A stretch of 64,000 bases of DNA, from the NCBI RefSeq assembly GCF_902729405.1, contig NZ_LR746496.1, positions 744,001-808,000 on the forward strand, written 5' to 3'. Below the pieces are notes generated by a model. That model searched no databases, was not told the origin of the DNA, and was given only the letters and a program-made list of their open reading frames with translations. Shown here piece after piece: positions 3,497 to 37,945 of this stretch (its first letter is position 1; the number at the start of each line of letters is the position of its first letter). The stretch comes from Acididesulfobacillus acetoxydans. Its GTDB lineage: Bacteria > Bacillota > Desulfitobacteriia > Desulfitobacteriales > Desulfitobacteriaceae. Both the position numbers and the translations under genes were made by a program.

Positions 3497-3728
3497 AAGG
3501 GTCTACCTGCCTTCTCCTTGATATCCTGTTGTTGCAGCGCCGCTCGACGCCGGGAACCTCCCAGCCGAGGAAGCCTTCGGGTCCTGGGCAGTCTTCCGGA
3601 TGGAGGGAATTCCCGGGACGGAAAGAGTACTTGGGACGAAGGGAACTTCCGGCGGGGGGAATCCCCCGGATTGTTACTTCGACGTCCGGAGAAAGATACC
3701 TGCTGTCCGCTCCAATGATTTCAGCGCC

Positions 3729-3757
3729 TGGCACGGGAAAGGGATTTTGAGTATAAT
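3729..3757 (+). promoter_or_regulatory. Candidate sigma-A promoter upstream of the selenoprotein gene
   Basis: A perfect TATAAT at 3752-3757 lies 17 nt downstream of a weak -35 (TGGCAC). The spacing is right and the next plus-strand gene begins about 65 nt later. The rest of the 326-bp divergent gap (3497-3822) is GC-rich, with short GGGAA/CCGGA repeats and no coding signal I can support. Confidence 0.35.
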
Positions 3758-3822: not shown

Positions 3823-4161
3823 TTGAAAGACGTTACGATTTTTACCACCAAGACTTGACCGCACTGCAGAAGCGCGAAAGAGTTTCTTTCGCAGAACAGG
3901 ATTTATTTTGCCGAGAGGGATGTTCAGAAGGATCCGCAAGCGGCTTGGGAACTGCAAAGACGCAATATCAGCGGGGTGCCGACTTTTCTGATCGGCGAGG
4001 ACGTGATTGTGGGTTTCGATCGGCAAAGGATCCTGCAACTGGTCGATCATCGCCTGGCGGACTGTCCCCAGTGCGGACAGAAAATGCGGGTGCCGGTGGG
4101 AAAAGGTGCCCTTCAGGTCAAGTGCCCAAAATGTGCGCACCAATTTGTCATCAATACTTAG
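3823..4161 (+). CDS. Selenocysteine-containing glutaredoxin-like protein with C-terminal zinc ribbon (TGA read as Sec)
   Basis: Frame 1 reads KDVTIFTTKT, then TGA (3856-3858), then PHCRSAKEFL and on to a TAG at 4161. Read as selenocysteine, the TGA gives a U-P-H-C redox motif exactly where glutaredoxins have C-P-x-C. The fold continues with the cis-Pro/binding signature SGVPTFLIGEDVIVGFD, and the protein ends in a zinc ribbon (CPQCG and CPKCA). About 112 residues. The start is put at TTG 3823, with GGTAGGGG 8 nt upstream; ATG 3793 is an in-frame alternative. Sec glutaredoxins are known in some clostridia, but fusion to a zinc ribbon is less familiar to me. Likely role: thiol-disulfide or deglutathionylation chemistry in the cytoplasm. 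A standard gene caller would miss it or start it at 3976. Confidence 0.85.
3856..3892 (+). promoter_or_regulatory. Bacterial SECIS element directing selenocysteine at the TGA
   Basis: Fifteen nucleotides after the TGA there is a perfect 8-bp stem, GCGAAAGA (3874-3881) with TCTTTCGC (3885-3892), closed by the loop GTT. The loop begins with G and lies 24 nt after the TGA. Known bacterial SECIS rules ask for a small apical loop with a G at its start, about 16-37 nt after the codon, so this fits. The element would be bound by SelB. Confidence 0.8.
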
Positions 4162-37633: not shown

Positions 37634-37945
37634 AGTAGCCTCAGCGTCCGGGGCCGGCAAGCGCAGCGGGCAGGCGGCCAAGCCCCGCGAAGCAGGATTA
37701 TATCTGAATGTGATGATGGGGAAAAGTACGGCAGGGGATTCACGCAGCGAGGGCGGAAAGGGTGGGAGCCGCCTGGAAGAGACTTTCGGAAGTGCACCCC
37801 GGAACGGTTGGACGAAGAAGAGTAGTTTAACCCGCAGAGGCTGCGTTAAAGCCCGGAGTGGAACGGCACACCATGGGCGGTGTGCTGTTCAAGCAGAGTG
37901 GAACCACGGAATCCCCGTCTCTGGACGAGGGTTCCTTTTCTGTTT
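37634..37945 (+). ncRNA. T-box riboswitch leader, cysteine-specific
   Basis: The antiterminator motif AGAGTGGAACCACGG (37895-37909) matches the T-box consensus (AGGGTGGNACCGCG). It overlaps a terminator hairpin in which GGAACC (37900-37905) pairs with GGTTCC (37930-37935), followed by TTTTC. In the upstream stem I region, the probable specifier loop holds TGC (37793-37795) followed by A, a cysteine codon. Uncharged tRNA-Cys would stabilise the antiterminator and allow cysE-cysS transcription. The downstream genes agree fully. Confidence 0.88.

Follow-up and report, generated by a model that had tools for sequence, protein, structure and literature searches.

The window, a stretch of 64,000 nucleotides of Acididesulfobacillus acetoxydans DNA, contains a short gene for a glutaredoxin-like protein with a C-terminal zinc ribbon, interrupted by a TGA at the first position of its redox motif (Table 1). 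This TGA was the only in-frame stop within the coding sequence. Translation through it gave LKDVTIFTTKTUPHCRSAKEFL...CPQC...CPKC...INT followed by the terminal stop, with the U-P-H-C motif at residues 12-15. The initial annotation had described a glutaredoxin frame intact on both sides of a TGA at the first redox Cys, and read-through did yield one continuous protein. The TTG start is used in the genus of the window, and the orthologues start with ATG, GTG or TTG at the matching place. The promoter-like sequence upstream represents one match observed against 0.4 expected by chance.

Table 1. Features of the glutaredoxin-zinc ribbon locus, in window coordinates
Feature	Position	Strand	Remarks
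Sigma-70-like promoter match, CTGGCA-18-TATAAT	3728..3757	+	10/12 consensus positions; weak
Sec-glutaredoxin-zinc ribbon CDS	3823..4161	+	112 aa, TTG start, TAG stop; translated with TGA = U
Glutaredoxin domain	3832..4008	+	Residues 4-62 by Pfam PF00462; fold reaches about residue 74
TGA predicted to be read as selenocysteine, residue 12 of U-P-H-C	3856..3858	+	TGA in 29/29 full-length Sec homologues, Cys in four
Resolving cysteine C15	3865..3867	+	Invariant in alignments A1 and A5
Bacterial SECIS hairpin	3874..3892	+	Stem 3874-3881 / 3885-3892, loop GTT 3882-3884
C4 zinc ribbon	4063..4134	+	C81 4063-4065, C84 4072-4074, C101 4123-4125, C104 4132-4134

Two further features of the window were recorded. 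The C-terminus of a vitamin B12-dependent ribonucleotide reductase, ending CPECG...CVVCTHCGYSKCG, is encoded at positions 1-579 on the same strand, approximately 3.2 kb upstream of the gene, and a T-box leader is present at positions 37704-37925 of the plus strand (104.6 bits).

The glutaredoxin domain was matched by PF00462 at 53.6 bits (gathering cut-off 22.9), and the same Pfam model matched 23 of 23 family members. The AF2 model of the protein had a mean pLDDT of 90 (range 70 to 90 over all five models), and its top Foldseek match was the glutaredoxin cGrx1 (7c10), with a target TM of 0.93 and 46% identity over 73 residues. The earlier assignment of a glutaredoxin domain was right. The best-scoring NCBIfam models were TIGR02196 and NF041212. 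As the protein scored below the cut-off of every NCBIfam model, it has probably been truncated or missed in annotation, and the selenoprotein is probably unannotated.

The hairpin downstream of the TGA

The two stem arms of the hairpin, GCGAAAGA and TCTTTCGC, form eight pairs around a loop with G first, and the stem begins 15 nt after the TGA. The criteria given for bacterial SECIS elements in a recent review are a loop of 3-9 nt with a G in the first two positions, an upper stem of 4-16 bp, a UGA-to-loop distance of 16-37 nt and a minimum free energy (MFE) of at most -7.5 kcal/mol (PMC13188914). The window element lies inside all of these limits, with a loop of 3 nt, a stem of 8 bp, a G at the first loop position, a distance of 23 nt and, for the 27-nt element, a folding energy of -10.1 kcal/mol. 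When single sequences of 45-76 nt were folded, the hairpin was not the MFE structure and the z-score was about -0.8, so that one sequence alone is no proof. The case for a SECIS comes from the comparison across relatives, which is strong.

Codon use was analysed in 36 Sec genes, with positions elsewhere in the same genes as the baseline. The codon for Ala18 was GCG in 33 of 34 Sec genes (19% elsewhere), that for Ser23 was TCG in 33 of 35 (9% elsewhere), and that for Phe21 was TTT in all 36 (78% elsewhere). The two genes with Gly18 (GGG) had TCC at Ser23, which is a compensating pair. The mean fold energy of the element was -7.7, compared with -2.2 for synonymous shuffles, and the lowest shuffled set was never below -3.3; for individual relatives the shuffle p-values were modest (0.002-0.04). 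With distant members included, changes on both sides were observed at four of the eight stem pairs, which was equalled in 6 of 500 shuffles. Nine covariation cells were counted, and none of 500 shuffles equalled this figure, although relatedness inflates such counts. The hairpin was lost in the Cys forms (0 to -1.3 kcal/mol). These comparisons indicate that the SECIS is conserved by selection on RNA structure. An 8-bp, G-first hairpin at the right distance had been proposed in the initial annotation, and this is accurate for the window gene; the "perfect 8 bp" did not hold as a conserved trait, as some relatives have a mismatch or a bulge in the upper stem. A nearly identical hairpin sequence (GCGAAAGAGTTCTTTCGC) was also seen in the gene for a UPWC glutaredoxin in a Thermomicrobiales MAG (L051 3001-3222).

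Homologues and decoding of the TGA

Full-length glutaredoxin-ribbon proteins with exactly one TGA, always at the same site, were found in 20 genomes of the class sample. The phylum sample added nine Sec forms from five families (f18, f50, f63, f126 and f132), giving 29 full-length Sec homologues over seven bacterial families (f1, f2 and these five). The sole close orthologue returned by the contig search was from Peptococcaceae bacterium CEB3 (93% identity). Four homologues in the class sample were free of the stop and had TGT or TGC at residue 12, which aligns the TGA with a catalytic Cys, and each of these Cys homologues is one unbroken protein of 114 residues. In alignment A1, residue 12 (Sec or Cys), C15 and the four ribbon cysteines were all invariant. 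Two genomes, G032 and G062, carry Sec and Cys paralogues together. At three loci (L054, L064 and L076) the Cys paralogue is near a CsoR-like repressor; at L054 it is followed by DUF134-like, NifX-like and Mrp-like ATPase genes, and L076 has relatives of all three (names in both cases from sequence reading).

At least 17 Sec relatives without the ribbon, of about 75 residues, were also found, and these are common in one genus (g6). In a tree of the glutaredoxin domain, the four Cys forms made up one clade (support 98/99), and eight of the nine sampled ribbon-less Sec forms fell into one clade (starred) inside the ribbon-bearing forms, although the tree was poorly resolved. The direction of change was likely from Sec to Cys, on a tree whose root is not fixed. 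A second Sec-glutaredoxin without a ribbon (LPL-UPHC) is encoded in the same genome as the window gene (G000:C1:1510321-1510527; L062 from 1501), and in genome G007 a relative of it lies about 900 bases upstream of the glutaredoxin-ribbon gene.

The host genome is a single contig of 4,520,225 bases. All four genes of the selenocysteine machinery, which had been named as a check on the selenoprotein reading, were present: selA (547.7 bits), selB (370.8 bits as the sum of two pieces, cut-off 242), selD (406.4 bits) and selC, a tRNA-Sec with a UCA anticodon. The selD gene carries an in-frame TGA of its own; it lies together with selA, and some 3.4 Mb of sequence separates this pair from selC and selB (G000:C1:3921896-3925274 and 477829-490833). 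A Sec-containing formate dehydrogenase has been reported in A. acetoxydans INE (PMC8982180).

Two other explanations of the TGA were weighed. If it were a true stop, the glutaredoxin would be a pseudogene, with the sequence downstream encoding a small ribbon protein of its own. TGA is ordinarily a stop codon, and a table-11 reading of the locus does give an open reading frame of 61 residues from the GTG at 3976 to 4161. Both halves and the same TGA are nevertheless kept in 29 full-length homologues, the Cys homologues encode one continuous protein, and the hairpin is under selection. In addition, the 11 residues at the N-terminus are conserved, and none of the homologues combines a true stop with a start of its own further downstream. 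We consider a true stop very improbable. Recoding of the TGA as Trp or Cys by another route is even harder to entertain: read-through by itself would likewise keep the frame open, but TGA serves as the terminator in ordinary relatives (it closes several short homologues), the Sec machinery is complete in the genome, the gene has a SECIS, and the non-TGA forms have Cys at the site. Judged on its sequence, the window gene is a real selenoprotein gene, with strong sequence evidence for Sec incorporation. The overall reading, of a selenoprotein glutaredoxin (UPHC) with a C-terminal C4 zinc ribbon and the decoding, redox and ribbon mechanism proposed here, is given a probability of roughly 0.88.

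Proposed mechanism and role of the ribbon

Decoding would begin with the hairpin, which is predicted to recruit SelB with Sec-tRNA so that the ribosome reads the UGA as selenocysteine, a step for which the comparative sequence evidence is strong. By the mechanism of cGrx1, the Sec12 selenolate would then attack a disulfide of the client, and Cys15 would resolve the mixed selenenyl-sulfide. The oxidised Sec12-Cys15 pair would be re-reduced, most likely by thioredoxin reductase. The ribbon is expected to bind Zn2+ through C81, C84, C101 and C104, and may either position the client or, as in thioredoxin 2, serve as a modulator that responds to redox state or zinc.

A search of the genome for the GshA-type glutathione ligase, limited to PF04262 (Glu_cys_ligase), gave no match, and a thioredoxin reductase was present (374 bits). 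MsrA was considered as a client by analogy with cGrx1 and was rejected, as MsrA is missing from the genome, whereas it is present in 12 of 14 control genomes. Because no GshA-type ligase was found, MsrA was absent and thioredoxin reductase was present, the latter is probably the reductant. Comparison of gene neighbourhoods did not point to a client, as the downstream genes for a peptidase and a universal stress protein were common only to close relatives. Ribonucleotide reductase tails of the CPECG type need a redoxin, which makes the upstream B12-dependent ribonucleotide reductase a candidate client of the Sec-glutaredoxin.

The ribbon consists of CPQC and CPKC in a CxxC-16x-CxxC arrangement at the C-terminus. 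The four cysteines of these two knuckles were invariant in 23 of 23 aligned ribbons, 20 of which matched PF13717 (Zn_ribbon_4) at E<=0.001; the window ribbon itself scored 25.8 bits, below the gathering score of 30.3. The earlier zinc ribbon assignment was reasonable. When modelled alone, the ribbon was four-stranded (pLDDT 82). Its top structure matches were the ZitP zinc finger, LysW and IBR domains, with thioredoxin 2 a weak match; in this ribbon-alone Foldseek search no match was below E 0.001 (best E 0.58), and the VIA Z was at most 4.1. The position of the ribbon-less clade suggests that the ribbon was lost there. As this clade is nested inside the ribbon-bearing forms and has kept Sec, the ribbon is probably dispensable for catalysis.

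Thioredoxin 2 (TrxC) likewise combines a redoxin with a zinc ribbon. Two roles for the ribbon of the window protein were compared. Docking to a client, as first suggested for this protein, is a guess, and by analogy with the zinc-binding thioredoxin 2 a redox or zinc switch is equally plausible. In a switch of the kind proposed for thioredoxin 2, oxidation would free the zinc and alter the activity at the Sec site. The retention of all four cysteines in every aligned ribbon-bearing form is consistent with this, and thioredoxin-2 structures (3p2a, 2ppt and 7d6l) were among the Foldseek matches of the ribbon alone, but these matches were weak (E above 3), and many Desulfosporosinus-like relatives have lost the ribbon and retained the Sec site, which argues that catalysis does not need it. 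A switch can be proposed only tentatively. The same reserve applies to docking, whether of a specific client, of nucleic acid or of a membrane partner. Ribbons of the PF13717 type frequently serve as interaction modules, and in related genomes the same ribbon (CPHC...CPCC) ends a small predicted membrane protein (L063 1486-1905, minus strand); against this, no neighbouring gene is conserved beyond close relatives and no client was identified. It is also conceivable, but rather unlikely, that these proteins form a distinct selenoprotein family in which a Sec redoxin, gated by a ribbon that senses the redox or metal state, operates independently of glutathione in bacteria that are anaerobic, exposed to metals and in part acidophilic.

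Comparison with known redoxins

Sec-glutaredoxins are a known kind of protein (PMC1794560 and PMC13188914), and the window protein has in common with the generic form, as described in the latter, the domain family PF00462 and the UxxC position of Sec. The C-terminal ribbon architecture was not found in the searched literature or curated families. The fusion was absent from the examined passages on Sec-glutaredoxins in both papers, the word "ribbon" did not occur in the available text of the prokaryotic selenoproteome review (PMC13188914), and within the open-licence literature no description of the fusion was found and no paper joined glutaredoxin, zinc ribbon and selenocysteine. The present analysis contributes a clade of no fewer than 29 selenoproteins, with an architecture absent from the text of that 2026 review. 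The two genomes with both paralogues offer a clean natural comparison of Sec and Cys in one fold, and the ribbon makes it possible to test whether Sec redoxins are tuned by zinc modules.

Among curated families, the YruB-family glutaredoxin model TIGR02196 gave 69.3 bits for the window protein, below its cut-off of 88.55, and the Uxx-star model NF041212 gave 49.9 bits, below its cut-off of 66; both models are without a ribbon. The nearest structures are those of cGrx1 from Clostridium (Alkaliphilus) oremlandii (PDB 7c10, 7c12 and 7c13). In this native selenoprotein the first residue of the U(C)PXC site makes the attack, and resolution falls to the second Cys (PMC7642778). The window protein is like it in the glutaredoxin fold and in Sec within U-P-x-C. 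The solved chain of cGrx1, at 84 residues, stops at the glutaredoxin fold and has no ribbon, whereas the window protein has one. The proposed client of cGrx1, MsrA, is absent from the genome of the window. The reductant described for cGrx1 is glutathione; a GshA-type ligase for its synthesis was not found in the present genome.

Thioredoxin 2 and the window protein both combine a thioredoxin-fold redoxin with a CxxC...CxxC zinc ribbon. The former is a thioredoxin with Cys and an N-terminal ribbon, whereas the latter is a glutaredoxin with Sec and a C-terminal ribbon, and the structural similarity between the two ribbons is weak. Thioredoxin 2 is the closest working analogue of the ribbon-bearing Sec-glutaredoxin.
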